Part shown: positions 1 to 30,270 of the stretch, piece after piece
Position numbering within the stretch: the first letter of the stretch is position 1
Layout: each line of letters opens with the position of its first letter
Source: Candidatus Levybacteria bacterium RIFCSPLOWO2_01_FULL_38_21
Lineage (GTDB): Bacteria > Patescibacteriota > Microgenomatia > Levybacterales > UBA12049
DNA length: 50,274 nt
Reading direction: 5' to 3'
Assembly (NCBI GenBank): GCA_001782475.1
Contig: MFOT01000007.1
Span: forward strand, 1-50,274
Program-made: the position numbers and the translations under genes
Notes under the pieces: generated by a model
Told to the model about the DNA's origin: nothing
Databases searched by the model: none
What the model saw: the letters and a program-made list of their open reading frames with translations, nothing else

Positions 1-1
1 G

Positions 2-226
2 GTTCTTTTTTCAGGAGATTTAGGATTTTCCAATACACTACATTTTACACTTGGCACACATTTTGGCATCTGTATTTTGCGGTTTCCAAATGAAATGTCG
101 GTTTCCGAAATAAATAAAATGTCAAAAGAGCTATTATTGAAAGTTGATCCCCAAGATTATCGTGGAAATTTGATTATTCTTTCTCCTGGAAAGTTGAGAC
201 TGCGAAGATACAAACAAACACATTAA
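2..226 (+). CDS. DUF5615-like (PIN-like toxin) protein, C-terminal fragment cut by window edge
   Basis: Frame 2 is open from the window edge: VLFSGDLGFSNTLHFTLGTHFGICILRFPNEMSVSEINKMSKELLLKVDPQDYRGNLIILSPGKLRLRRYKQTH*. Pattern (DLdF.n...GTH.GI.iLR.pne...) resembles DUF5615. Missing from ORF track because it has no start. Confidence 0.6.
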   Translation, partial: VLFSGDLGFSNTLHFTLGTHFGICILRFPNEMSVSEINKMSKELLLKVDPQDYRGNLIILSPGKLRLRRYKQTH

Positions 227-343
227 AATCAACCAGGATTGGGAGAAACTAGGATTTTAATTATTATAATCACCGCATCTTGAAAAATTTGCATAATATG
301 GGACCGGATTATTTTGTAGAGCAGATTATACTATGGGTACGAT

Positions 344-777
344 CTATTTAAAAGAGGCAATTGGATTGTCGACTTCAATTACTTTCTCAACCAAGCGATC
401 GGACAACCTCTCTAAATAGTTATTTATCTGTTCTTCTTAAAAGAGAGGACTTCAGTGGAGTTTTTTGTTCTTTTAACAACTTCTCCCTTCGTTCTAAAAG
501 AGAGGGCTTTTCAGGAATTACCCCTAACGATTCTTCTGGAAAAGGTCTTCTAGGAAATCTACCTCGTTCCGATTCTGATGGTCGTCTTTCTTCTTTTAAT
601 TCTGCCACTTCACTCACCCCCTGAATTAAATTCTTCCCAACTTCGATGACCTGTTCTATCAATCGATTTGCGTACCCCGCCACGTGTGATCGTAAATCCC
701 GCAAACGTCTTACTTGCCTCGTCAACAAGCTTAGGGAGTTTATTTCTGAGCTCAGTTGAAGGAAATGTCGTATTCAT
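344..777 (-). pseudogene. Possible frameshifted/decayed small gene (coiled-coil-like); ATG at 777
   Basis: Good promoter TTGACA(815-810)-N17-CACAAT(792-787) ends 9 nt before ATG 777 (MNTTFPSTELRNKLPKLVDEASK...). Coding-like signal then appears in the 420..728 frame (...NRLIEQVIEVGKNL...) and again in a third register ending at 344 (...SDRLVEKVIEVDNPIASFK*). Confidence 0.3.
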
Positions 778-828
778 AACAAAACAATTGTGCAGAATTC
801 TGACGTGGTTGTCAAGGAAGAAAAGATT

Positions 829-3012
829 TTATGGGGCAGGGGATGGGGAGGGAGTGGGGTGGGTGCAGGTTATGCAATATGTATCTCCTGTTGCGTCTTT
901 TAGTACAGTTTGATTTTTAAGTTCTGTATTCGGATCTCCTTCTTTTGCCTGTTCTTGGGTGTCTTTATTAACAAAGACATCTTGATTTTGAATTAGAGCA
1001 TTAGCTTTTAATCCAGACTCTGTGCCTCTTATGAAATACTCAAAGCGAGTTTTGCAAGCGTTATCTTTTCCGGGAACAGAACCAGTGTCTGAGCATACAG
1101 CTTTTTGAATTATACTCAAAGGTCTCTGAAACGGCTGGGCAGGCTTTCCCTTTAAAAGATTTTCCATGATATCATGCCAGATTGGAGCAGCTCCGGTAAT
1201 TCCAGAAACTAAACCGCTCATTGGAGTATTGTCATTATTACCAACCCAAACAACTACAACATAGGAGGGTGCATATCCAATCGTCCAGTTATCCCTAAAG
1301 TCATTTGTTGTTCCTGTTTTGACAGCAACAGGTAAATTGCCGATTCTAAGAGGAGAGTTAGTTCCGAATTCCATAGCCCTTGCCTGATTGTCCGAAAGAA
1401 TATCCGAGATGATAAAGGCGACTCCCTCGGGCAAGATTTTTTTGCCGAATATTGGGGAAGGGGGAGGTTTATATTCTTCTAAAACTTTTCCCTTGCTATC
1501 TGTTACTTTTAAGATTGGATGAAGGGGTATTTTATATCCTCCATTTGCAAAAACTCCAAAAGCAGTTGCCATATCAACCATAGTTACCTCTCCTCCTCCA
1601 AGAGTTAATGAAAGTCCATATCTACTCGGATCATTAAATGTTGTTATGCCCATTGCTGAAGCGGTTGCAATCATTTTAGGTACCCCATTAAGCTTAAGCA
1701 TTTTAACAGCAGGAATATTTATAGAGTTTGCCAAAGCTTGTCTTACTTGTAAAACTCCATGAAATTTGCCATCGTAATTAACCGGGCAGTAGGGTGGGTG
1801 TCCAGGGTTTGGGAAACAAACCCTCCGATCTATAAAAGGTGTTGCAGCAGTATAGCCATTCAAAAGACCCACGGCATAGTTTATTGGTTTTATGGAAGAA
1901 CCCGGCTGTCTTAGAGCAATTGTTACGTTTACGTTCCCGTCATTTGCCATGTCAAAATAATCATGGCTTCCAACCATTGCTAAGATTTCTCCTGTCGCGG
2001 GATTAGTAACCAGAGCAGCTCCATTTGTTACTCTAGAATACTTAAGATTTGCAATCTCGGCGGAGACCGAAGCTTGAGCCATGCCTTGAATAGATAAATC
2101 AAGACTTGTTGTTACTTTTAAGCCTCCTTGTTCTACAGCCTTTTCCCCATATTTTTTAATAAGAAGATCCTTTACGTACAAGACAAAATGAGGAGCTTTA
2201 ATTGCATTAGATAAATTTCTATAATGAAGTTGTTCTTCTAAAGTTTTATCTAACCCCTTTTTTGTTATGTATTTTTCCTGATACATTTTCCGAAGTACCT
2301 CTTCCTGTCTTTTTTTTGCAAGTTCAGGGTGAGACCCAAAAGGCGAGTAGGTTGTAGGAGCTTCTGGGAGTGCTGCCAGAAGTGCACTTTCAGAAAGCGT
2401 TAAATCTTTTGCATGTTTTCCAAAATAAGTCTGGGAAGCTGCTTCAACTCCCCAAGCAGTGCCGCCGTATGGTGTTTGATTAAGATACATTTCTAAAATC
2501 TGGCTTTTTGAATAAAGGGACTCGGTTGCAAATGCCAGAAGAATTTCCTTAACTTTTCTCAAGATTGTTCTTTCCGGAGTCAAAAGACTGTTTTTTACCA
2601 GCTGTTGGGTAATGGTTGATCCTCCTTGAATTTGGTGACGGAGAGTAATTGAAATTACAGAACGGGCGATACCTCTTACATCTATGGGACCGTGCTGGTA
2701 AAAATCCTTATCCTCAATTGCAATAGTTGCCTCCTGCATGTATTTTGGGATTGATGAAAGCGGAATAAAAGTTTGATTTTTTTGCGCGTATATTGTGAAC
2801 AAGAGATTGCCGTTTCTATCAAATATTTGAGTCGATTGAGGAACGTTTGTACTTGCAAGTCTTGTTGGAGAAGGAAGGTCACGCAAAATATAGATATAAA
2901 AAATAATAAATAAGATTAAAAGAGGAATTAGTAAAATTGCGTATCTTTTTCTAAGTATTTTTTTACTAAGCTTTTTAGAAAATATTTTAACCCTAGAGGT
3001 CGTATTTTGCAT
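829..3012 (-). CDS. Penicillin-binding protein 1A family (transglycosylase/transpeptidase)
   Basis: 727 aa; N-terminal TM; GT51 motifs EDKDFYQHGPID, GGSTITQQLVKN; transpeptidase motifs QPGSSIKP and KTGTT. Confidence 0.97.
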   Translation of the reverse strand: MQNTTSRVKIFSKKLSKKILRKRYAILLIPLLILFIIFYIYILRDLPSPTRLASTNVPQSTQIFDRNGNLLFTIYAQKNQTFIPLSSIPKYMQEATIAIEDKDFYQHGPIDVRGIARSVISITLRHQIQGGSTITQQLVKNSLLTPERTILRKVKEILLAFATESLYSKSQILEMYLNQTPYGGTAWGVEAASQTYFGKHAKDLTLSESALLAALPEAPTTYSPFGSHPELAKKRQEEVLRKMYQEKYITKKGLDKTLEEQLHYRNLSNAIKAPHFVLYVKDLLIKKYGEKAVEQGGLKVTTSLDLSIQGMAQASVSAEIANLKYSRVTNGAALVTNPATGEILAMVGSHDYFDMANDGNVNVTIALRQPGSSIKPINYAVGLLNGYTAATPFIDRRVCFPNPGHPPYCPVNYDGKFHGVLQVRQALANSINIPAVKMLKLNGVPKMIATASAMGITTFNDPSRYGLSLTLGGGEVTMVDMATAFGVFANGGYKIPLHPILKVTDSKGKVLEEYKPPPSPIFGKKILPEGVAFIISDILSDNQARAMEFGTNSPLRIGNLPVAVKTGTTNDFRDNWTIGYAPSYVVVVWVGNNDNTPMSGLVSGITGAAPIWHDIMENLLKGKPAQPFQRPLSIIQKAVCSDTGSVPGKDNACKTRFEYFIRGTESGLKANALIQNQDVFVNKDTQEQAKEGDPNTELKNQTVLKDATGDTYCITCTHPTPSPSPAP

Positions 3013-3060
3013 AGCATATATGATACCATTTAACTGAAGGTTAAGACAATCTAGAAAAAT

Positions 3061-4086
3061 ATGATGAGTTTTTTTGAAATTTTAAACAAAGTATCTTTTC
3101 CAGGATTGGGTCTTAATTGGCTCGATTTAATTATTATTATCGTACTGGCATTTTATGCGCTGGAAGGCTATTCTTTGGGTTTTATTGCGGCTCTTCTTGA
3201 TCTTATCGGATTTATCTTATCATTTACAATTGGACTAAAAACATACTCTTTTTTAGCAGAGCTTCTTGGGAAGATTTTTTCTATTCCTTCCGGATTTTCC
3301 AATGCTTTGGGATTTTTAATTGCTGCTTTTGCTGCTGAGATAATCATTGGACTAATCTTAAGAAAAATTGTTTATTCAAAATATTTCAGTAGGTTCACAA
3401 TTAAAGATAGTCTTTTAAAAAACATAGATCACCTAGCGGGCTTATTATTTGGTATTTTTTCAGGACTTATATTATTTTCCTTTCTTCTAACAATTATAAT
3501 TGCTCTTCCTGTTTCTGTTTTTCTAAAACACTCGGTTTCTTCTTCTAGGATTGGAAGTTTTCTTGTCTCAAAAACTGCCGGCTTTGAGAAAGATTTAAAC
3601 AATGTTTTTGGGGGAGCACTTAATGAAACCCTGAACTTTTTAACAGTTGAGCCAGAAGCAAATGAAGTTGTAGATCTTAATTTTAAAACTAGAAATTTTT
3701 CCCTTGATTCATCTTCGGAGCAAACAATGTTTGCCATAGTTAATAATGAAAGGATATCAAGAGGATTTAAGTCCTTGGCAGTAGATAATAAGTTAAGAGA
3801 GGTTGCAAGAAATCACTGCAAGGATATGTTTATCCGCGGTTATTTTTCTCATTACACGCCCGAAGGACTATCCCCATTTGATAGAATGGCACAGACTGAT
3901 ATTGGTTTTACTTATGCGGGAGAAAATTTGGCACTTGCGCCCAATGTGCTTTTGGCAATGCAGGGGTTTATGCAAAGTGAGGGACACAGAGCAAATATTC
4001 TATCTTCTAATTTTGGTAAAATTGGGGTTGGTGTAATCGATGGAGGAATTTACGGAGAAATGTACTGTCAGGAATTTACAGACTAA
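3061..4086 (+). CDS. CvpA-family membrane protein fused to C-terminal CAP (SCP/PR1) domain
   Basis: N-terminal multi-TM CvpA-like region; C-terminus MFAIVNNERISRGFKSLAVDNKL...HCKDMFIRGYFSHYTPEG...AGENLA...SEGHRANILSSNFGKIGVGV is a CAP domain. Confidence 0.88.
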   Translation: MMSFFEILNKVSFPGLGLNWLDLIIIIVLAFYALEGYSLGFIAALLDLIGFILSFTIGLKTYSFLAELLGKIFSIPSGFSNALGFLIAAFAAEIIIGLILRKIVYSKYFSRFTIKDSLLKNIDHLAGLLFGIFSGLILFSFLLTIIIALPVSVFLKHSVSSSRIGSFLVSKTAGFEKDLNNVFGGALNETLNFLTVEPEANEVVDLNFKTRNFSLDSSSEQTMFAIVNNERISRGFKSLAVDNKLREVARNHCKDMFIRGYFSHYTPEGLSPFDRMAQTDIGFTYAGENLALAPNVLLAMQGFMQSEGHRANILSSNFGKIGVGVIDGGIYGEMYCQEFTD

Positions 4087-4125
4087 AGTAATTGCTATAT
4101 TGTTTCATTGTTAAATTGTTAGCAA

Positions 4126-5217
4126 ATGTATAAATTACCGGATTTGAAAACTGCTCAAGTAAAAGGTAAAAAAGTTTTCTTAAGAACAGATATAGACGTG
4201 CCCCTATCGGAGAATGGGCAGATTGCAGATGATACAAGATTAGGAGAAGGACTTGAAACTTTGAACTTTCTTCTTAAAAACGGCGCAACGGTTTTTATCG
4301 GTGGACATCTTGGTCGTCCGGATGGTCTCAAAAGAGATCTAAGTGTTAAGCCAGTGACGAAATGGTACGCGAAAAAATTCAGAATTCAGAATTCAGAATT
4401 CAGAGTTCAGAGCATTGGAGGGTTCGAAGGCTTTCAAATCTCAGATAAACTATTTCTTCTTGAGAATTTGAGGTTTGATCCGGGAGAAGAATCTAGTCCA
4501 ACGACCCGCTCAGGACAAGTTTTTGCTCAAAAGCTTGCAAGCCTCGCAGATATATATGTAAATGATGCTTTTGCCTCATCACATCGTGCGCATGCATCAA
4601 TCGTAGGAGTTGCGAAACTTTTACCCCATTTTGCCGGTTTTATGCTTAAAAAAGAGGTAGAAACTCTGTCGGCCCTTCTTAATAATCCAAAAAGACCGCT
4701 TGCTGTTATCATTGGTGGCGCAAAGATAGAAACCAAACTTCCCTTGGTTGAAAAGATGCATCAGATTGCAGATTATGTTTTAGTGGGAGGACTAATTGCA
4801 GAAGAGACAAAAGTGCTTTTAAAAGTCCAGCATGAAAAAGTAAATCCGCCAGCTGGCGGAAGAAAGTCAGCACTTCTTGTCGCAGATTTAAACAGCGAAG
4901 AAACAGATATAACCCCAAAAGATGCGGAAAATTTTTTACAGATAATAAATCTTGCAAAAACAATTGTTTGGAATGGGCCGGTTGGAAAAACCGAGGGAAA
5001 CGAAGAAAATTTGGAAATTGGCACTGCAAAACTTGCCCGCGGAATTATTGACGCCGGAGTTTATTCGGTTGTTGGAGGAGGGGATACAATTGCGTATCTT
5101 AAAAAAATAGGACTTTTAGATAAATTTTCCTTTGTATCATCAGGAGGAGGCGCAATGCTCGAATTCCTTTCAGGCGAAAAATTACCAGGGATAGAGGCCT
5201 TGACAAGTTGTACGTAA
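4126..5217 (+). CDS. pgk: Phosphoglycerate kinase
   Basis: FLRTDIDVPL, GGHLGRPDG, LLENLRFDPGEE, NDAFASSHRAHAS, VGGGDT motifs. Confidence 0.97.
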   Translation: MYKLPDLKTAQVKGKKVFLRTDIDVPLSENGQIADDTRLGEGLETLNFLLKNGATVFIGGHLGRPDGLKRDLSVKPVTKWYAKKFRIQNSEFRVQSIGGFEGFQISDKLFLLENLRFDPGEESSPTTRSGQVFAQKLASLADIYVNDAFASSHRAHASIVGVAKLLPHFAGFMLKKEVETLSALLNNPKRPLAVIIGGAKIETKLPLVEKMHQIADYVLVGGLIAEETKVLLKVQHEKVNPPAGGRKSALLVADLNSEETDITPKDAENFLQIINLAKTIVWNGPVGKTEGNEENLEIGTAKLARGIIDAGVYSVVGGGDTIAYLKKIGLLDKFSFVSSGGGAMLEFLSGEKLPGIEALTSCT

Positions 5218-5234
5218 TGTTGTACATTTTAAAT
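5200..5234 (+). promoter_or_regulatory. Promoter plus YefM-type operator of the phd/relE module
   Basis: TTGACA(5200-5205)-N17-TACATT(5223-5228)-N6-ATG(5235). Half-sites TGTACg (5209-5214) and TGTACA (5221-5226), 12 bp apart. Confidence 0.7.
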
Positions 5235-5489
5235 ATGACAGATTTAATTTCTATATCAGATGCGCGGGCAAATTTGCCAGATATTGTGGCAAAAGTAAAT
5301 AAGAATATGAACAGAGTCACAATTACCGTGAACGGAAAGCCTAAAGCAACCCTCATAAGCGCTGAGGAGCTTGAGTCTCTAGAAGAGACTGCCGAAATTT
5401 TAGCAACACCTGGAGCAAAAGAAAGTATTTTAGAAGGTCTTAAAGAGGCAAAAAAAGGACAAGGTATTCCGCTTTCAGGGCTTAAATAA
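5235..5489 (+). CDS. Type II TA antitoxin, Phd/YefM family
   Basis: MTDLISISDARANLPDIVAKVNKNMNRVTITVNGKPKATLISAEELESLEET; ATG at 5235 preferred over track start 5208. Confidence 0.9.
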   Translation: MTDLISISDARANLPDIVAKVNKNMNRVTITVNGKPKATLISAEELESLEETAEILATPGAKESILEGLKEAKKGQGIPLSGLK

Positions 5490-5492
5490 AGC

Positions 5493-5741
5493 ATGCAGAT
5501 TATTGTTACTCCAAAAGCCGCGAAGGATTATAAACTTCTTCCGAAAACAGAACAAACAAAAATTAAGAGAAAATTAGAAATACTTGAGGAAAATCCGTAT
5601 ATAGGCAAAAAACTTTCCGCTGAGTTTTCAGAGTTAAGAGTTCTTAGGGCATGGCCATATAGAATTATTTATTATATAGACAATAAAAGAGGAAAAATAT
5701 TTATAGTAAATATTCATCATAGGCAAGGAGCTTATAAATAA
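5493..5741 (+). CDS. Type II TA toxin, RelE/ParE family
   Basis: MQIIVTPKAAKDYKLLPKTEQTKIKRKLEILEENPYIGKKLS...LRAWPYRIIYYIDNKRGKIFIVNIHHRQGAYK; directly downstream of the antitoxin. Confidence 0.9.
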   Translation: MQIIVTPKAAKDYKLLPKTEQTKIKRKLEILEENPYIGKKLSAEFSELRVLRAWPYRIIYYIDNKRGKIFIVNIHHRQGAYK

Positions 5742-5794
5742 CGAGAGTTTAAGCAGAGAAAAACTCCCCGGCCTCCAAGCCCTCCTTAAATAAA

Positions 5795-7462
5795 TTACCA
5801 ACTCGTCCGAATATGTTTCATTGCGTAATCTAAATCTCCTGCGACTTTTTTACGGGGGTTGAAGATATTTTGAGGGTCGAAGATTTTTTTGGTTTCTTCA
5901 AAAAGTTCCACTATTTTTTCTCCGTACATTTGTTTAAGATACGGAGTTCTTATAAGTCCGTCATTATGCTCTCCGGTTATTGAGCCGTGATATTTAGCGA
6001 TAATCTCATAAACCTGGTCTGAAATTTGGGGAATTGCAGTTCTGACACTTGGGTTATTTATATCAACGAGCGGAATAATATGAAAATTCCCGTCACCCAC
6101 GTGTCCTGCAACTGTAAAAATAAACTCCGGATGCTTTTTAAGAATATCTGTTACTTTTGGTACTACTTCTGCAATATATTCAGGCTTTATAACAAAATCG
6201 TCAATAAAAGGAGCCGTATGTTTGTCACGGATTTTTTTGCGAAGCAGGTTAAAACTTTCGCGTCTTACAAGCCAGTATCTTTTTTCCTGATTTTCCAAAG
6301 CAGTTTGTGTTTGGGGATGAAGAGGTTTGAGTTTCTCTCGGAGTGTAGCCACTTTCTTCTTAACAATTTCTAAATCATCACTTGTGAAATCAACTTGGAG
6401 TACTAGCTTAGGCAAACTTCTGCCAGTAAACAGATCAAAGAATGCCGGAAGAAACGCAATTCCTGCCTCAATTGATCCCAAAAACCCAAGTTGTTTGGCA
6501 AATTCCGGAAAATATCTTAGGGCAAGTTTTAGGGTGTTATCATCATAAGATTCAAAACTTTCTGGCTCAAGCGGCAAAACCTCCTTGATAATTTCTCCAA
6601 GATGGGATATGTCATGAAGAAAAATAATTAACATATCGCGGTGCTGATGAATGGGTACGAGTTCCAGATCACCTTCGAGAAAGATTCCAAGAGTTCCTTG
6701 AGCGCCAACAAAAAGTTTTGTTAGGTCAAAAACCTGCCTGCCGGCAGGCAGGTTTTTTTCCCAAACATTCCAGAGAAAATATCCTGCGGAATTTTTGCTA
6801 ACTTTAGGCTTTGCCTTCTGTAGTAAATCGTAGTTATGGGTTATGAGTTCGTAGATTTTGCGGTAAATTTCCCCTTCGAAATCGATCTGCGCCATTTTTT
6901 GTTTAAGTTCTTTCTCTGAAAGCGGTTTTAATTCATATATATTTCCGTCTGAAAGAACTACTTTCATTCGTCTTACATAGTTTTCGGTTTTACCATATTG
7001 AAGAGATTTCTCTCCCCCCGTATTATTATTAAATATTCCTCCCATTGCGCAGAGCTCTCGAGATGCAGGGTAGGAGGGGAAAATTAAATTAGTTTTAAGA
7101 GTTTCTTTTTCAAAATCACGATAAAAAACACCCGGTTGGGTTGTAGCGATATTCCCGTTTACAACCGGCGTGTGATTAAAATATTTTCCAAATGCAACGA
7201 TAATAGACTCATTGATTGAGCCACCTCCCATGTCGGTTCCCGCCGCGCGGGCAGTAAGGGATAGGGTAGGTTTGTTCTTTTTATTATCATTAACAAATTT
7301 GACCAGCGCTTTTACATCTTCATCATCTTTTGGAAAGACAACAACTTGCGGTTTTACTTCAAAAAGAGAGGCATCATGGCTGTAGTCGGAAAGAGTCTTG
7401 TCGTCGTATAAAATATCGCCCTTTATCAAATGTCTGAGTTCTTCGATTAGTTTATCATCCAT
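5795..7462 (-). CDS. FAD-binding oxidoreductase (GlcD/D-lactate dehydrogenase-like)
   Basis: FAD_binding_4 signatures (VVFPKDDEDVKALVKF, ARAAGTDMGGGSI, NNTGGEKSLQYG) and C-terminal GHVGDGNFHIIP, GEHNDGLIRTPYL. Confidence 0.92.
   Translation of the reverse strand: MDDKLIEELRHLIKGDILYDDKTLSDYSHDASLFEVKPQVVVFPKDDEDVKALVKFVNDNKKNKPTLSLTARAAGTDMGGGSINESIIVAFGKYFNHTPVVNGNIATTQPGVFYRDFEKETLKTNLIFPSYPASRELCAMGGIFNNNTGGEKSLQYGKTENYVRRMKVVLSDGNIYELKPLSEKELKQKMAQIDFEGEIYRKIYELITHNYDLLQKAKPKVSKNSAGYFLWNVWEKNLPAGRQVFDLTKLFVGAQGTLGIFLEGDLELVPIHQHRDMLIIFLHDISHLGEIIKEVLPLEPESFESYDDNTLKLALRYFPEFAKQLGFLGSIEAGIAFLPAFFDLFTGRSLPKLVLQVDFTSDDLEIVKKKVATLREKLKPLHPQTQTALENQEKRYWLVRRESFNLLRKKIRDKHTAPFIDDFVIKPEYIAEVVPKVTDILKKHPEFIFTVAGHVGDGNFHIIPLVDINNPSVRTAIPQISDQVYEIIAKYHGSITGEHNDGLIRTPYLKQMYGEKIVELFEETKKIFDPQNIFNPRKKVAGDLDYAMKHIRTSW
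6728..6757. repeat. 30-nt perfect palindrome AAAAACCTGCCTGCCGGCAGGCAGGTTTTT inside a CDS
   Basis: Encodes in-frame NLPAGRQVF on the minus strand; terminator-like in both directions. Confidence 0.9.
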
Positions 7463-7526: not shown

Positions 7527-8531
7527 TCATTTTCGTGCTATTACTTTTCTCACAGCTTCTACTATTGCCGGAGCGTCCATCTTGTATTTTTCCATAAGCT
7601 CCTTGGGAGTTCCTGATTCTGCAAAAGTATTTTGAAGACCGATAAATTCCATGGGAGTTGGTTTATTTTTTGCCAAAACTTCTGCAATTGCACCTCCTAA
7701 GCCTCCCATGACCTGATGATCTTCAGCAGTCACGACTGCGCCGGTTTTTTCGGCAAGTTCAACAACGGTTTTTTCATCAAGCGGTTTTATGGTCGCAACA
7801 TTTGCGACTAACACTTCGATTCCCTCAGTGTCAAGCTCTTTGGCTGCCAAAAGCGCATTATAAAGAATATATCCTGTTGCAAAAATTACTGCCTGATATC
7901 CTGAGCCAGTCGAGGGATCAGATTCCCAGAAAGTTTGAATTTTTCCAACATCAAACGGAGTTTCGCTTGTTGTAATAACAGGAGTTTTGTCTCTCGTGAA
8001 TCTTAGATAAACTGGTCCATCAATTTCTGCCGCTTTTATAGTTGCTTTTTTTGCTTCAATAGCATCACAAGCCACAAAAATTGTAATTCCCGGCCAAGCT
8101 CTGACTGAAGCGATATCTTCTGTTGCTTGATGAGTCGCACCGTCTGGGCCTGTCACGATTCCCGAGTGATGGCCTGCGATTTTTACATTAGACTGGTTAT
8201 ATACAATAGTAGTTCTTATTGTCTCCCAGTTTTTTCCTGGAGAAAAAGTTGCGTAGGATGAAATGAACGGAATTTTCCCGCTTATTCCAAGACCCGCTGC
8301 AATTGCGGCCATATTTTGCTCGGCAACTCCGCATTCAAAAAAACGCTCTGGAAATTTTTTCTCAAATGCTTCTGTTTGCGTTGATTCAGAAAGATCAGCT
8401 GTTAACACAACCACATTCGGATTTTTTTCTCCCAATTCAACCAAACCCTCGCCATAGCCGGTTCTTGTTGCTTTCTGCTCAACGTTATTGTCAAAAATCT
8501 TCGGATTTAATTTTAAATTCGGATTTAACAT
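7527..8531 (-). CDS. Transketolase, C-terminal subunit
   Basis: ATRTGYGEGLVELGEKNPNVVVLTADLSEST, ECGVAEQNMAAIAAGLG, HHSGIVTGPDGATHQATEDIA. ATG at 8531 (MLNPNLKL) preferred; 8532-8582 extension is repeat-derived. Confidence 0.93.
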   Translation of the reverse strand: MLNPNLKLNPKIFDNNVEQKATRTGYGEGLVELGEKNPNVVVLTADLSESTQTEAFEKKFPERFFECGVAEQNMAAIAAGLGISGKIPFISSYATFSPGKNWETIRTTIVYNQSNVKIAGHHSGIVTGPDGATHQATEDIASVRAWPGITIFVACDAIEAKKATIKAAEIDGPVYLRFTRDKTPVITTSETPFDVGKIQTFWESDPSTGSGYQAVIFATGYILYNALLAAKELDTEGIEVLVANVATIKPLDEKTVVELAEKTGAVVTAEDHQVMGGLGGAIAEVLAKNKPTPMEFIGLQNTFAESGTPKELMEKYKMDAPAIVEAVRKVIARK

Positions 8532-8768: not shown

Positions 8769-9632
8769 CTACTGGTGTTCGCTTCGGATTTTTCCTTGTA
8801 ATGTTCTTAGTTCTGCGAGTGCTTTTTTGGCCTGTTCTTTATTTGGCGGCATGCCGTGCCAGTGAAAATCTTTTTCCATAAAATCAACGCCCTTTCCGGG
8901 AATCGTATGAGCAATAATTACTGTTGGTTTTTCAAAAACTGCCCGAGCTTCTTTTACGGAATCTATAAAAGCTCTGATATTATTTCCATCAACCTCCAAA
9001 ACCTCCCAATTAAAAGCTTCATACTTTGCTTTTAACGACTCAAGCGGCATGACATCTTCTGTAAAACCGTCGATCTGAATATTATTTCTATCTATAATTT
9101 GAGTTAAGTTATTTAATTTGTTTTTCCCTGCAAACATCGCCGCTTCCCAAGTATTTCCTTCGTCGTGTTCTCCGTCTGATGTGATGCAATAAGTATGAAA
9201 TTTTTTCTTATCTAGTTTTGCCGCCAACGCAATTCCAATTGTCTGAGATAATCCTTCTCCTAAAGGCCCTGATGTTGTTTCAACTCCGGGGAGTGCGATT
9301 CTATGCGGATGTCCCTGGAGTCTTGAATTTAATTTTCGAAGGGTTTTTAGCTCTTCAACAGGAAAATAGCCGGAAAGTGCCATACTGACATATTGGACCG
9401 GACAAATATGTCCGTTTGATAAAATCAATCTGTCTCTATCCTCCCAATTAGGATTTTTTGGATCGTGGTTTAGGATATGAAAATAAAAGGCGGTAAAAAT
9501 ATCTGCCATTCCCAATGGTCCTGCAGAGTGTCCTGAACCTGCCTCAAGAAGTGTCTCAATAATTAACTCTCGAGTTTTAACAGCAATTTCTTCAAGTTTT
9601 ATTAATTTTTCTTCGTGAAGTTCTTCTGTCAT
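8769..9632 (-). CDS. Transketolase, N-terminal (TPP-binding) subunit
   Basis: GSGHSAGPLGMADIFTAFYFHIL, TTSGPLGEGLSQTIGIALAAKL, SDGEHDEGNTWEAAMFAGKNKLNNLTQIIDRNNIQIDG. Confidence 0.95.
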   Translation of the reverse strand: MTEELHEEKLIKLEEIAVKTRELIIETLLEAGSGHSAGPLGMADIFTAFYFHILNHDPKNPNWEDRDRLILSNGHICPVQYVSMALSGYFPVEELKTLRKLNSRLQGHPHRIALPGVETTSGPLGEGLSQTIGIALAAKLDKKKFHTYCITSDGEHDEGNTWEAAMFAGKNKLNNLTQIIDRNNIQIDGFTEDVMPLESLKAKYEAFNWEVLEVDGNNIRAFIDSVKEARAVFEKPTVIIAHTIPGKGVDFMEKDFHWHGMPPNKEQAKKALAELRTLQGKIRSEHQ

Positions 9633-9678
9633 CTTATTCTATATTACAATCCTTATAAATCTTTTTGCAAGAAAATTA

Positions 9679-10947
9679 CTACCCCTTAAAGACAATCATC
9701 AAGTCCGAAACATTTGAGGGGAGTTTTTCTGTATCAATTCCATCACCGACTTTTTCAAAAAACTCCAAACTATTATTCGAGTTTAAAAATTCCGCAGGTT
9801 CTAGATTCATCCCCCTTGCTTTGTTGATGGTATTTATATCGCCAATCGCGCCGGCAAAACGGGAATTATCCCAGCCATCTGAGTCAAAAGAACATATAAT
9901 CGTTTTTCCATCAATAAAAGATAGTGCGCCCAAAACAACCTCCTGATTTCGTCCGCCTTCTCCTTTTCCTTTGACTTTTACAGTCGTTTCCCCGCCTGCC
10001 AAGAGTATTGTCCCTTTTTCTGCATTTTTAATAAGTATTTCCCCTGCCTTTCTTGCTTCGATCTGAAATTTATTAGAAAAAATATTTGTTTTAAATCCTA
10101 GATCTTGGGCTTTTTCCCTCATTGCCTCAAGAGCAGTCTGATTATTTAAAATAAGAATATTAAACACATTCTCGAAATATTTATCTTCCCTTGGGGTTTC
10201 TGTAAAGTCATTCCTTGTAATACCCCTCAAGCGGTATTTATCAACAATATTAAGTGCATTCTCAACAGTTGTCTCATCTCTTACGGTAGGACCCGAAGAG
10301 ATAACAGAAAGATCATTCCCGGGAACATCAGATGAGATTATGCTTATAACTCTTGCAGGATATAAATATTTCAAAAGCCCCCCGCCCTTTAAGAGAGATA
10401 AATGTTTTCTTACACTATTCATTTCGAAAATGTCAGCGCCCGATTTAAGAAGTTGCTCTTCTATTGCAATCAGTTTATCAAGGGTAGCTCTATATGGATT
10501 TTCAAAAAGCGCAGAGCCTCCTCCTGTTATGACAACAATAAATAAGTCTTTTTCCGAAAGATCTCTCAGCTCGTCTTTTAATAGAAATTTTGTAAAAATT
10601 AGGTTTTGTTCAGAAGGCAGGGGGTGTGTCCCTTTTGTAAATTTTACTTTTTTAAAATCTTCCGGATTTGTATCAATTACATAACCCTCTGTTAACTTTT
10701 CTCCCAGTTTTTCTTCGATAAATTTCGAATTTCTCGCAGAGCCTTTACCGAATCCGATTAAAAAAATGCGCTCAAATCCGGAAAGATCAAAAGTTTTATC
10801 TTTTATATTCAAAGTATTGTCTGAGACAGCTATGCTTTTACCGATAACATTTTCAGATTGAATAGAAGATAGCGCAGTTTCTATAAGTTCTAAAGCAATT
10901 TTTCGCTGAGGGCTTGTTGCAAGTTTATCGAAATTTTTAATAAACAT
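9679..10947 (-). CDS. Glycerate 2-kinase (DUF4147/MOFRL family)
   Basis: FLIGFGKGSA, GTHPLPSEQN, VITGGGSALFENP, SDVPGNDLSVISSGPT, LAGGETTVKVKGKGEGGRNQE. Confidence 0.93.
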   Translation of the reverse strand: MFIKNFDKLATSPQRKIALELIETALSSIQSENVIGKSIAVSDNTLNIKDKTFDLSGFERIFLIGFGKGSARNSKFIEEKLGEKLTEGYVIDTNPEDFKKVKFTKGTHPLPSEQNLIFTKFLLKDELRDLSEKDLFIVVITGGGSALFENPYRATLDKLIAIEEQLLKSGADIFEMNSVRKHLSLLKGGGLLKYLYPARVISIISSDVPGNDLSVISSGPTVRDETTVENALNIVDKYRLRGITRNDFTETPREDKYFENVFNILILNNQTALEAMREKAQDLGFKTNIFSNKFQIEARKAGEILIKNAEKGTILLAGGETTVKVKGKGEGGRNQEVVLGALSFIDGKTIICSFDSDGWDNSRFAGAIGDINTINKARGMNLEPAEFLNSNNSLEFFEKVGDGIDTEKLPSNVSDLMIVFKG

Positions 10948-26275: not shown

Positions 26276-26992
26276 ATGGGAAAAAATGGTATGAAGAGTA
26301 AGGTGGTTTTGGCAGTTGGGGCACACCCCGATGATATAGAATTTGGAGCTTCTGGAACCATAGCAAAATGGGCGCAAGAGGGAGCAGAGTGTTATTATCT
26401 AATCTGTACAGACGGAAGCAGGGGATCCACAGATCCAAAGATGACTCATAAAAGACTTGTTCAGGTTAGAAGAAAGGAGCAGGAGGGAGCAGCAAAAATT
26501 TTGGGCCTTAAAAAGGTCTATTTCTTAGACTATACAGATACTCTTTTAACTGCAGACTACGCTCTAAGACGCGACATAGCAAAAATTATAAAAATCATAA
26601 AACCGGATATAGTGGTTACCATGGACCCAACTTTTTACTACTCCGAACAGTTTAATTTTATAAATCATACGGATCATAGAGCCGCAGCCCTGGCTACTAT
26701 GGATGCATGTTACCCCTTGGCTCGGGACAGATTAACATTTCCTGAACATGAAAAAGAGGGCTTAACGCCACATCGCGTCGAGGAGATTTGGTTTATTGGT
26801 TTTGATAAAACTAATTTGCTGATAGATATTACAGACACTTTTGTTAAAAAAATTGAAGCTATTACTATGCACAAGAGTCAATTTGAAAACATGGAGCATG
26901 TTATAAAAAGAGTAGAGGAGAGAGCAAGATATTTCGGAATTACAAAGGGTTGTAAATACGCAGAAAACTTCGTTCGGGTTGAGCTTTTTTAA
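26276..26992 (+). CDS. LmbE/PIG-L family deacetylase
   Basis: VVLAVGAHPDDIEFGASGTIAKWAQEGAECYYLICTDGSRG...HTDHRAAALATMDACYP. Alternative start 26291. Confidence 0.93.
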   Translation: MGKNGMKSKVVLAVGAHPDDIEFGASGTIAKWAQEGAECYYLICTDGSRGSTDPKMTHKRLVQVRRKEQEGAAKILGLKKVYFLDYTDTLLTADYALRRDIAKIIKIIKPDIVVTMDPTFYYSEQFNFINHTDHRAAALATMDACYPLARDRLTFPEHEKEGLTPHRVEEIWFIGFDKTNLLIDITDTFVKKIEAITMHKSQFENMEHVIKRVEERARYFGITKGCKYAENFVRVELF

Positions 26993-27849
26993 AGATCTGA
27001 AAGAGTTGATGTTTCTTTGCCTCTTTCCCCAACATAATTAAGATATCTTTCGGTTGTAGAAAGTCTTTTATGTCCTAAAATTTTAGAAAGTAAAACCAAA
27101 GAAGCACCCTGTTTTAAGTGATGGGCAACAAATGTGTGTCTTAAATCATTTACCCTTGCATCTTTTACTTCTGCCAATCGGAAATACCTTTCCATAGAAG
27201 TTCTGATATTTCTTACCAAAAATGGTCTCCCAGATTTTGTGATAAAAAGATGACTGTCCTTTGTCTTTGGTCTTATTTCCAGATATTTTTGGAGCGCCTC
27301 CTGCGCCCTTTTATTAAGCGGAATTTCTCTTTCTTCGTGTTTTTCGTATGCTGCTATGTGCAAAGAATCCTTTTTACTATCGGAAACCCTGAGGTTCGCC
27401 AGTTCTCCAATTCTTATCCCTGTTTGAAGTAAAAGTTCAATGATTGCAAACATTCTGGGGTCGTTTCTTGCTGCGTCTCGCAAGGCTCTATATTCGGTTG
27501 GCGTGAGTATTCTGGGTGGTGCAAGCTGATATCTTGGGTGGGCGACTAAAAGAGAAGGGTCATCGGTAACATATTCGTTGATTTTAAGAAATCTATAAAA
27601 AGTTCGAGTAGAATTAATCTTTCGTGAAATTGATTTTGGGGTGTAACCGTCTTTCTGCATTTTTGCCAAAAATGCCTCTATGTCCTCTTTGGTTACTTCG
27701 TGAATTTGATTTTTCGCAACCTCTTCCAAAAACGAAATAAGTTGCTCTATATCTTTGCCATATGCTACAATTGTAGAGTTCGAATGCTTTTTGTTTTTAA
27801 GAAAATTTTTAAACTCTTGGTGGGCATCCCGGAGCTTTATGGTTTTCAT
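26989..27849 (-). CDS. Tyrosine recombinase (XerC/XerD-like)
   Basis: LLQTGIRIGELANLRVSD, RVNDLRHTFVAHHLKQGASLVLLSKILGHKRLSTTERYLNY (R..H..R..H/Y pattern). Confidence 0.93.
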   Translation of the reverse strand: MKTIKLRDAHQEFKNFLKNKKHSNSTIVAYGKDIEQLISFLEEVAKNQIHEVTKEDIEAFLAKMQKDGYTPKSISRKINSTRTFYRFLKINEYVTDDPSLLVAHPRYQLAPPRILTPTEYRALRDAARNDPRMFAIIELLLQTGIRIGELANLRVSDSKKDSLHIAAYEKHEEREIPLNKRAQEALQKYLEIRPKTKDSHLFITKSGRPFLVRNIRTSMERYFRLAEVKDARVNDLRHTFVAHHLKQGASLVLLSKILGHKRLSTTERYLNYVGERGKETSTLSDL

Positions 27850-27963
27850 ACTTCGATTTCACTCAGTATGATCCTGAGCAGAGTCGAAGGATCATACAAA
27901 AGTGATGTCCTATAATATCAATAAAATTAACTTTAGTCAAGATGGGAATATTGAATACTTAGT

Positions 27964-28305
27964 ATGAAAAAAATCTTATTTATTGTTGCTATTGTAGCTT
28001 CAATTTTTATTATTAATAGCCTTGTTCGGTCTATCTACGATTTATGGAAAAAGCAAGATTTAATAACTCAAGCCCAAAAAGAACTAGAGAGAGAAAAACA
28101 GGAAAATTATGACCTAAAGTCTAAATTATCCAAGGCTCAAAATAATCAATTCGTAGAAGAGGAGGCTAGAAATAAATTATTGCTTGTAAAACCGGGCGAG
28201 GAATCGGTGATTATTCCTCAAGATTTACTTTCATCCCAAAGTTCGCAAAGAAAAAATATTGATACGCACCCAAACTTTAGAAAATGGTGGGATTTATTCT
28301 TCTGA
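27964..28305 (+). CDS. FtsB/DivIC-like septum formation initiator
   Basis: Short TM protein with coiled coil QAQKELEREKQENYDLKSKLSKAQNNQFVEEEARNKLLLVKPGEE; ends RKWWDLFF*. Confidence 0.8.
   Translation: MKKILFIVAIVASIFIINSLVRSIYDLWKKQDLITQAQKELEREKQENYDLKSKLSKAQNNQFVEEEARNKLLLVKPGEESVIIPQDLLSSQSSQRKNIDTHPNFRKWWDLFF
28279..28305 (+). repeat. Direct repeat copy 1: AGAAAATGGTGGGATTTATTCTTCTGA (ftsB 3' end)
   Basis: 22-nt block AAATGGTGGGATTTATTCTTCT (28282-28303) identical to copy 2; encodes KWWDLFF*. Confidence 0.95.
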
Positions 28306-28347
28306 TTTAATGGTTAACTCAAAATGATTTATAATAAACGTAGATCA

Positions 28348-28527
28348 ATGAGACTTCCATATAGCGGAAACGCAGTTATTCCAAGAGAAAAGTTAACAAA
28401 ATATTTATTTTCAGAAACACATGCGACAGGAAAATTTAAAGCAAGGTTTTTCAGAAATCTCGGTTTTGACGAACCCAATGTCGATTTATTACCATATATC
28501 CTGTATAATAAGAAAGTTAGGAGATAA
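28348..28527 (+). CDS. DUF6883-like protein
   Basis: MRLPYSGNAVIPREKLTKYLFSETHATGKFKARFFRNLGFDEPN; start 28348 preferred. Confidence 0.65.
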   Translation: MRLPYSGNAVIPREKLTKYLFSETHATGKFKARFFRNLGFDEPNVDLLPYILYNKKVRR

Positions 28528-28531
28528 TATT

Positions 28532-28762
28532 ATGTTTGAAGAATTAGACACTGTAGTTCTTGCCCACGATATTGAAAAAGATGGTCTTAGAAGAGGCGAT
28601 GTGGGGACTATAGTTCATATTTACAAAAATGGAAAAATATTAGAAGTTGAGTTTGTGAATGCAGAGGGGAAAACAGTAGCTTTACTTACTCTTGATTCAT
28701 CCGAAGTCCGTGGCATAAGGAAAAATGATATGCTGCATGTTAGAGGGTTTGCAACTGTTTAA
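28532..28762 (+). CDS. DUF4926-like protein
   Basis: MFEELDTVVLAHDIEKDGLRRGDVGTIVHIYKNGKILEVEFVNAEGKTVALLTLDSSEVR. Confidence 0.75.
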   Translation: MFEELDTVVLAHDIEKDGLRRGDVGTIVHIYKNGKILEVEFVNAEGKTVALLTLDSSEVRGIRKNDMLHVRGFATV

Positions 28763-28797
28763 TCTTCTTAAAGGATCTAATACTCGATCAAATTGAC

Positions 28798-28823
28798 AGA
28801 AATGGTGGGATTTATTCTTCTAG
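28798..28823 (+). repeat. Direct repeat copy 2 of the ftsB 3' end
   Basis: AGAAATGGTGGGATTTATTCTTCTAG; same 22-nt block at 28800-28821; still reads KWWDLFF* but is no longer attached to a gene. Confidence 0.95.
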
Positions 28824-28882
28824 CCTGCAATGAGCCTTCCAAAACCACAAGTATTTGTCCCTGAAATTGATATAATATTTCC

Positions 28883-29218
28883 ATGAGCTGGGACATTATT
28901 ACTTTTGAAACACAACGAGGAGAAAAACCCGTAGACGAGTTTATTAAAAGACAACAGCCTCAAGCCAGGTCAAAAATAGTCCACAACATCAGACTTCTGC
29001 GACAATACGGAAATATGCTCGGTATGCCTCATTCAAGAATGTTAGTTGGAGGATTATACGAATTGCGAATTAGAGGCAAGGAAGAATTACGAATCTTTTA
29101 TTGTTTCAAAAAGAGAACTATTTATTTACTCCATGTATTTAAGAAACAAACACAGAAGACACGAGTAAAAGAACTAAATCTGGCAATAAATAGAATGAAG
29201 GAATTGACAACAGCATAA
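28883..29218 (+). CDS. Type II TA toxin, RelE/HigB (Gp49-like)
   Basis: MSWDIITFETQRGEKPVDEFIKRQQPQARSKIVHNIRLLRQYGNMLGMPHSRMLVGGLYELRIRGKEELRIFYCFKKRTIYLLHVFKKQTQKT. Confidence 0.92.
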   Translation: MSWDIITFETQRGEKPVDEFIKRQQPQARSKIVHNIRLLRQYGNMLGMPHSRMLVGGLYELRIRGKEELRIFYCFKKRTIYLLHVFKKQTQKTRVKELNLAINRMKELTTA

Positions 29219-29242
29219 CGTTTATGTTATAAAATAGTTACT

Positions 29243-29515
29243 ATGAGTAAGTGGGAAGATTTAGAAAAAGAGTTGTTATCGGACCCTGAAACAAGAAAGG
29301 AGTTTAATAAGCTTGCACCTCGCTATGCGGTGATTTCAGAATTTATTAAAGCTCGTCTAAAAAAGGGGATGACTCAGAAAGACGTCGCTGATAAAATTGG
29401 CACCAAGCAATCTGCTGTTGCCAGACTTGAGGCAGGTAACAGCAACCCAACAATTGGCTTCTTGGAGAAAATTGCCTCTGTGCTTGGAACAAGGCTAACG
29501 ATTCATCTGCGGTAA
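29243..29515 (+). CDS. XRE-family HTH antitoxin (HigA-like)
   Basis: FIKARLKKGMTQKDVADKIGTKQSAVARLEAGNSNPTIGFLEKIASVLGTRLTIHLR. Confidence 0.92.
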   Translation: MSKWEDLEKELLSDPETRKEFNKLAPRYAVISEFIKARLKKGMTQKDVADKIGTKQSAVARLEAGNSNPTIGFLEKIASVLGTRLTIHLR

Positions 29516-29525
29516 AAGTAACTGG

Positions 29526-29552
29526 AGAAAGTGGTGGGACATATCTTTCTAG
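29526..29552 (+). repeat. Diverged direct repeat copy 3 of the ftsB 3' end
   Basis: AGAAAGTGGTGGGACATATCTTTCTAG; reads KWWDISF*; TGGTGGGA core and 15/19 match from TGG to TCT versus copies 1 and 2. Confidence 0.75.
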
Positions 29553-29823: not shown

Positions 29824-29938
29824 GCTATGGTTGTATCGGTACCAGGGGTGGGGATCCCCGCCTGCAACCTCCTGAAGCGACAGCTGATGGTGGGCAGGGA
29901 ACCCACGACCGCAAAGACTCTCTCCTATCAAAGCCTTG

Positions 29939-30010
29939 TGCCAACGGCAGGATTCGAACCTGCGACCCGACGCTTATGAAACGTCTGCTCTGCCCCTGAG
30001 CTACGTTGGC
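29939..30010 (-). tRNA. tRNA-Met (elongator-like, anticodon CAU)
   Basis: GCCAACG TA GCTC AGGGGCA GAGC A GACGT-TTCATAA-GCGTC GGGTC GCAGG-TTCGAAT-CCTGC CGTTGGC A. Confidence 0.92.
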
Positions 30011-30068: not shown

Positions 30069-30137
30069 CGCGGGGTAGTGTACAGTGCACATGAGGCTCA
30101 TAATCTCATAGGCTAGGCGCAACTCCTAGCCCCGCAA
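30069..30137 (+). tRNA. Initiator-like tRNA-fMet (anticodon CAU) with atypical D and T loops
   Basis: CGCGGGG ... TGAGG-CTCATAA-TCTCA ... CTAGG-CGCAACT-CCTAG CCCCGCA A; keeps C1:A72 mismatch. TATAAT at 30054-30059 upstream. Confidence 0.7.
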
Positions 30138-30270
30138 CCGATTCGACGCGCCTTTCGCTTCTCTCAAGGCTTGCTCACGGCAAGCTCTTGCGCGGCGAAT
30201 TGGTGCTGAACCTGCCGAAGCACACTTCAGGATGCCCAACGGACAACATTGTTTTTGGTGAAATGAGTTT

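Follow-up and report, generated by a model that had tools for sequence, protein, structure and literature searches.

Islands in tRNA and tmRNA genes, as collected by Islander, split the end of their target gene, carry a replacement end, and leave the displaced fragment at the far border (PMC4383910). The dusA-associated integrases belong to islands lodged in a protein-coding gene, which enter at the 5' end of that gene and carry an integrase of their own (PMC4482086). The dif (pdif) modules of Acinetobacter are small, are flanked by short Xer-type repeats, and owe their mobility to the host Xer (PMC6449649, PMC13141974). Here we describe a locus within a window of 50,274 nucleotides (the whole of the stretch analyzed, contig MFOT01000007.1 of Candidatus Levybacteria bacterium RIFCSPLOWO2_01_FULL_38_21) in which the division gene ftsB appears to serve mobile DNA of Levybacteria as a point of entry that has gone unnoticed. 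The genomes of Candidate Phyla Radiation bacteria are tiny, and the routes by which they gain genes are poorly known. Our literature search found no paper linking Xer, ftsB, and integration in these bacteria and none on ftsB as an integration site.

The left side of the locus is formed by a gene for an Xer-family tyrosine recombinase of 286 amino acids on the minus strand (positions 26989 to 27849; PF00589, 1.6e-27), a core gene divergent from ftsB (27964 to 28305, plus strand; DivIC family, PF04977, 1e-12). Two small cassettes follow, both on the plus strand. Cassette A consists of a half-length DUF6883 gene (28324 to 28527; PF21814, 1.2e-10) and a DUF4926 gene whose start was set by inspection (28532 to 28762; PF16277, 1.3e-20), and cassette B encodes a HigB/Gp49-type toxin-like protein (28883 to 29218; PF05973, 9.4e-23) and an XRE-type, HigA-like antitoxin with an HTH_3 domain (29243 to 29515; PF01381, 4.4e-16). 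An intact tRNA-Met(cat) on the minus strand (29938 to 30010; ARAGORN; Rfam, 67.7 bits) marks the right border, and beyond it lies a second tRNA-Met(cat) on the plus strand (30069 to 30139), a conserved neighbor that forms with the first a pair kept in relatives. Pfam upholds the gene calls of the initial annotation (Xer, ftsB, DUF6883/DUF4926, and HigB/HigA), except that DUF6883 covers only the first half of its profile (positions 2 to 56 of 110). None of the cargo genes in the window matched a recombinase family in a Pfam scan. A dispersed-looking repeat, TTCGATTTCACTCAGTATGATCCTGAGCAGAGTCGAAGGATCATAC, is situated between xer and ftsB (27849 to 27900), and a related TGAGTCGAAG-type element occurs after ftsB in L222 (RIFCSPHIGHO2_01_FULL_37_33), the closest named relative with ftsB.

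The last codons of ftsB occur three times in the window. In the functional end of the gene, which reads DTHPNFRKWWDLFF and closes with PNFRKWWDLFF-TGA, copy 1 spans 28279 to 28305, and its 22-mer AAATGGTGGGATTTATTCTTCT at 28282 to 28303 is identical in 22 of 22 nucleotides to positions 28800 to 28821, which lie in copy 2 (28788 to 28823, plus strand). A third, diverged copy of the 22-mer (77%) is found at 29529 to 29550, within copy 3 (29517 to 29552, plus strand), which starts 1 nt past the higA stop. At three or fewer mismatches, window shuffles give an expectation of zero chance matches in the window, and beyond the three copies the 22-mer is absent from the 788-kb, 28-contig genome, the whole assembly having been scanned; the three copies reported in the initial annotation are thus confirmed. 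Its statement that all of them keep a common frame and a stop needs one correction. All copies read KWWD...F-stop in the ftsB frame, but copy 2 (...NTRSN-stop-QKWWDLFF-TAG) has an earlier in-frame TGA; copy 3 reads ...KSNWRKWWDISF-stop, with the end SNWRKWWDISF-TAG. The 10-mer said to lie in opposite orientations in copies 2 and 3 is present, but as it is only a consequence of the TTCTAGAA that surrounds the copy 3 stop codon, we give it no weight.

Copies 2 and 3 resemble ftsB ends over more than the 22-mer, namely over about 12 codons that include an S-N-W block. This block matches the ftsB ends of about 120 relatives with P values of 0.001 to 0.009, and upstream of it the match ceases; for copy 3 against the family tails, the N-W block gives a P value of 0.004 and the core one of 0.0004. 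At the position where the family consensus is Trp, the ftsB genes of the window and of its close relative L222 have Phe, whereas copy 3 has retained the Trp and the codon of copy 2 is TGA, a single base away from TGG. Because this in-frame TGA stands where the tail consensus has TGG, copy 2 is a decayed end, and the differences at the Trp position and upstream of it indicate that copies 2 and 3 represent ftsB ends of older or foreign origin, not copies of today's end. The present tail appears native, since its NFRKWW variant is also that of L222. Between copies 1 and 2, the core agrees in 22 of 22 nucleotides, the upstream stretch in 10 of 21, and the stop codons are TGA and TAG, respectively, a pattern such as recombination inside the core would be expected to leave. 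Short direct repeats can also arise by slippage or tandem duplication, and a pair of this kind, spaced 34 nt apart, occurs at the end of a different gene in L202. A simple local duplication of the ftsB end is nevertheless highly improbable, and we reject it: it is largely refuted by the allelic differences, copies 2 and 3 keeping the ancestral Trp position and an S-N that the window's own ftsB lacks, and it does not account for the unrelated cargo between the copies, for an independent case in a second genome, or for the existence of empty sites, both described below.

When 1354 ORF ends were tested alike, 5 had a near copy (at most 5 mismatches in 24) within 3 kb downstream. Two of these five belong to ftsB, one in the window and one in G064 (Levybacteria RIFCSPHIGHO2_01_FULL_36_15b); among non-ftsB ORF ends, such copies were found in only 3 of 1235 (P = 0.06, Fisher test of ftsB versus other ORFs). 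At another locus (L209, genome G307, oriented position 8395), the gene end MPIGARVW appears again 960 nt downstream as MPVGARV-stop, either a paralogue or a second gene-end scar.

The interval between ftsB and tRNA-Met was surveyed in metagenome assemblies from the class (about 120 relatives), both in the family, Candidatus Levybacteria, and at 60 further class and order loci. Orthologues of ftsB are present in 61 of 73 family genomes. Throughout the Levybacteria and the 60 further loci, xer and ftsB are divergent neighbors in fixed order, and tRNA-Met is usually next after ftsB. The initial annotation had suggested that relatives be searched for empty sites, for differing cargo at the same place, and for KWWD-type ends past unrelated cargo, and all three were found. 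Twelve Levybacteria loci are empty, the ftsB stop and the 3' end of the minus-strand tRNA-Met being separated by -1 to 34 nt, and 22 Levybacteria loci with a called minus-strand tRNA-Met are filled, with gaps of 269 to 3679 nt. The cargo of these varies by genome and includes GIY-YIG proteins, Nudix-like proteins, HTH/LAGLIDADG-like genes, an ABC transporter, and others (named by inspection, apart from the GIY-YIG homologues), and the cargo of the window, DUF6883/DUF4926 and HigB/HigA, is absent from the relatives' loci compared. With its conserved borders and its genome-to-genome differences in cargo, the ftsB-tRNA-Met interval of Levybacteria is an insertion hotspot.

Two further features of the surveyed loci may be recorded. 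A protein of about 230 amino acids that combines an HTH with a LAGLIDADG-like stretch (EGFKNKHEHRLGFCNSDP), possibly the product of a homing-type gene, recurs before the plus-strand tRNA-Met in many Levybacteria (L066, L069, L083, L090, L109, L113, and L117). In L064 (genome G057), a second complete ftsB-like gene with 36% identity to the window ftsB lies at oriented positions 4836 to 5168 on the minus strand; the two ftsB-like genes face each other with the tRNA-Met pair between them, at one end of the contig, which may reflect duplication or an assembly chimera.

An ftsB-type end past unrelated cargo was found in one further genome, G064, as KWxxLFF-stop. Its ftsB ends in WKQWVNLFL-TAG and is followed by 2.37 kb of other cargo, beyond which WQQWINLFF-TAG is joined directly to an intact tRNA-Met. 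Since this junction looks like an empty site, the far copy is the displaced original ftsB end. No recombinase was found among the four G064 cargo genes scanned. Copies 2 and 3 of the window and the far copy of G064 are distinct ftsB alleles, and their likeness to ftsB ends starts near the same codon (S-N-W or W). In a PWM scan with family ftsB tails, the window and G064 copies outscore every one of 1.7 million null positions and no other Levybacteria interval does, so that just 2 of the 22 filled sites in Levybacteria bear the scar; a repeat scan of the 60 wider-class loci found none. Tail scars are real but rare, and these two scans rule them out as a general rule. A candidate decayed scar in G036 (E = 0.03), which sits inside an ORF, was not accepted. 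At the G064 locus (L070), oriented positions 6776 to 7087, 9340 to 9684, and 9684 to 10058 encode small, paralogous-looking proteins with the start motif E[VF][KR]DR/T..I.G, of which one lies behind xer and two belong to the cargo, so that they stand on either side of the xer-ftsB block.

Integration at the gene end with a replacement end, as the initial annotation had proposed, fits the empty and filled sites, the allelic scars, and G064, and fits less well the presence of a scar in 2 of 22 filled sites and 0 of 60 class loci. In our judgment the best reading, and a moderately probable one, is that cargo was inserted at the ftsB end together with a replacement end. Its main rival is homologous import, in which DNA of related Levybacteria with its own ftsB and downstream cargo would have entered with no site-specific recombinase, by recombination in xer or ftsB on the left and by a microhomology joint in the resident tail on the right, the old end being left as a scar. 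Fixed flanks with variable content are the usual outcome of exchange between homologous flanks, the scars are allelic and not identical ends, and the sharp 22-nt identity within otherwise diverged ends could be a conversion tract. Microhomology joining, however, would not require three scars to start near the same codon, as they do, and the native look of the window's own tail argues against the donor of copy 2 having supplied the body of its ftsB. We regard homologous import as possible, though not probable.

Behind copy 3 lies a pseudo tRNA-Met on the minus strand (29839 to 29910) that is not called as a tRNA; 18 and 12 nt of it, split by 42 nt, are identical to the tRNA-Met that abuts the scar in G064. 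This remnant fits copy 3 having once abutted a tRNA-Met, as the far copy in G064 does. Fragments of tRNA-Met were also found in the interval in L073 and L122. L222 (positions 1 to 6596) has no tRNA-Met within 6.5 kb behind ftsB and encodes a terminase small subunit (PF03592, phrog_51) about 5 kb behind it, together with a Cro/CI-type regulator; the region next to ftsB, ended by the contig end, is likely a provirus or the remnant of one. The tRNA-Met fragments and the terminase region of L222 show that other insertion routes use the same gap. Both would also be expected if tRNA-Met were the real target, insertion at its 3' end building the hotspot and the ftsB tail copies being by-products of later rearrangement. 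The 3' end of a tRNA gene is the classical target of islands, and that of the minus-strand tRNA-Met faces ftsB. We nonetheless consider it rather unlikely that the tail copies arose in this way, given that the tRNA of G064 is intact and that the piece duplicated there, as in the window scars, is the ftsB end.

The upstream Xer, which the initial annotation had taken as a clue to cassette integration, proved to be no element integrase. The ftsB-linked Xer is 67 to 89% identical among the family members aligned and adjoins ftsB in nearly all family loci and in 60 of 60 class loci; as a universal core gene, its position beside ftsB says nothing specific about the cassettes. It falls below the equivalog cutoffs for XerC, XerD, and XerA (171, 167, and 151 bits versus 335, 330, and 220) and, with 65 bits versus a cutoff of 265 for the NCBIfam model integrase_gron, is not of IntI type; its nearest PDB relatives are XerD (1a0p) and XerA (5hxy). 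All 20 ftsB-linked Xer sequences aligned have Asn-Asp-Leu-Arg where XerD has His-x-Leu-Arg (HxxR), at the position of the catalytic His. At synonymous positions, the ftsB tail codons do not exceed the remainder of the gene in conservation, and this ordinary variation argues against a standing binding site for Xer or another recombinase; the tail was rejected as a conserved DNA site, its synonymous codon identity being at expectation. It was likewise rejected as the chromosomal (terminus) dif, since the locus is origin-proximal, 29 to 120 kb from dnaA in ten complete or near-complete single-contig genomes. By inspection, the repeat shows no recognizable dif arms.

The repeats might still be att sites for the adjoining Xer. 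The resident enzyme would then put small circular cassettes at the ftsB tail, the newest nearest the gene, in the style of integrons or of the Acinetobacter dif modules. Such an array would accord with the Xer gene adjoining the site, with TA-like cargo that has no integrase of its own, and with an identical copy nearer ftsB and a diverged one farther away. It is quite unlikely, however, considering that the tail DNA has no synonymous conservation, that tail scars are rare though Xer is universal and are absent elsewhere in the genome, and that a locus so placed relative to dnaA is not the terminal dif. It would be very unlikely, too, that the ftsB-linked Xer of Microgenomates is a minimal integron-like platform capturing small circular TA-type cassettes at the ftsB 3' end, and we give equally little credence to the view that each cassette would bring a replacement ftsB end to an array growing outwards from ftsB.

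On the reading of insertion at the ftsB end, the cargo would have arrived as at least two small segments (DUF6883/DUF4926 and HigB/HigA), each entering within the last approximately 11 codons of ftsB and not behind the gene. At each entry, ftsB would keep a complete working end, and the previous or a foreign end would be pushed past the cargo to decay there. The events would have run from right to left: copy 3 is probably the older scar, because it is diverged and lies near the remains of a once-abutting tRNA-Met, and copy 2 the younger, because of its 22 identical nucleotides. Each step may have consisted of a single crossover in the tail core with an element that was circular or linear, and the acting recombinase may have been the resident Xer in trans or an integrase since lost from the element, unless RecA or microhomology did the work. 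IMG/VR yielded no element that combines an integrase of its own with an ftsB-type att; a scan of this database with the ftsB tail gave one match, rejected as chance inside a phage ORF unrelated to ftsB, and two other tail patterns gave no matches. The probabilities of these readings overlap, because a tRNA target and an action of Xer can both hold beside insertion at the ftsB end.

The fixed frame of xer, ftsB, and tRNA-Met with its exchangeable interval offers a defined place at which gains and losses of genes can be tallied from genome to genome. Through displaced ftsB ends, a division gene would join the protein genes that serve as landing sites, and such ends would give a recognizable scar for spotting cassettes that lack an integrase.

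The locus bears a resemblance, and only that, to an integron, in that a recombinase gene stands beside an array whose first position takes new cassettes; the recombinase of the window differs in scoring 65 bits against the integron integrase cutoff of 265. TA modules are typical cargo of pdif modules, and the small modules, short flanking repeats, and TA-type cargo found here are similar. In contrast to pdif, which are plasmid-borne 28-bp XerC/XerD sites that alternate in orientation, the repeats at ftsB are direct, chromosomal, and protein-coding, and any Xer site in them is putative. With the dusA-associated islands the locus has in common site-specific entry into a conserved protein-coding gene, although entry is at the 3' end of ftsB and the cargo is without an integrase. 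From the Islander islands it differs in that the ftsB-end cargo (that of the window and the four G064 genes) is without a recombinase, the target is the 3' end of a protein gene, the cargo measures 0.5 to 2.4 kb, and both ends are protein-coding alleles. It shares with them a displaced end of the target gene at the far border of the cargo, in the window (copies 2 and 3) as in G064, and uninterrupted empty sites at 12 family loci.
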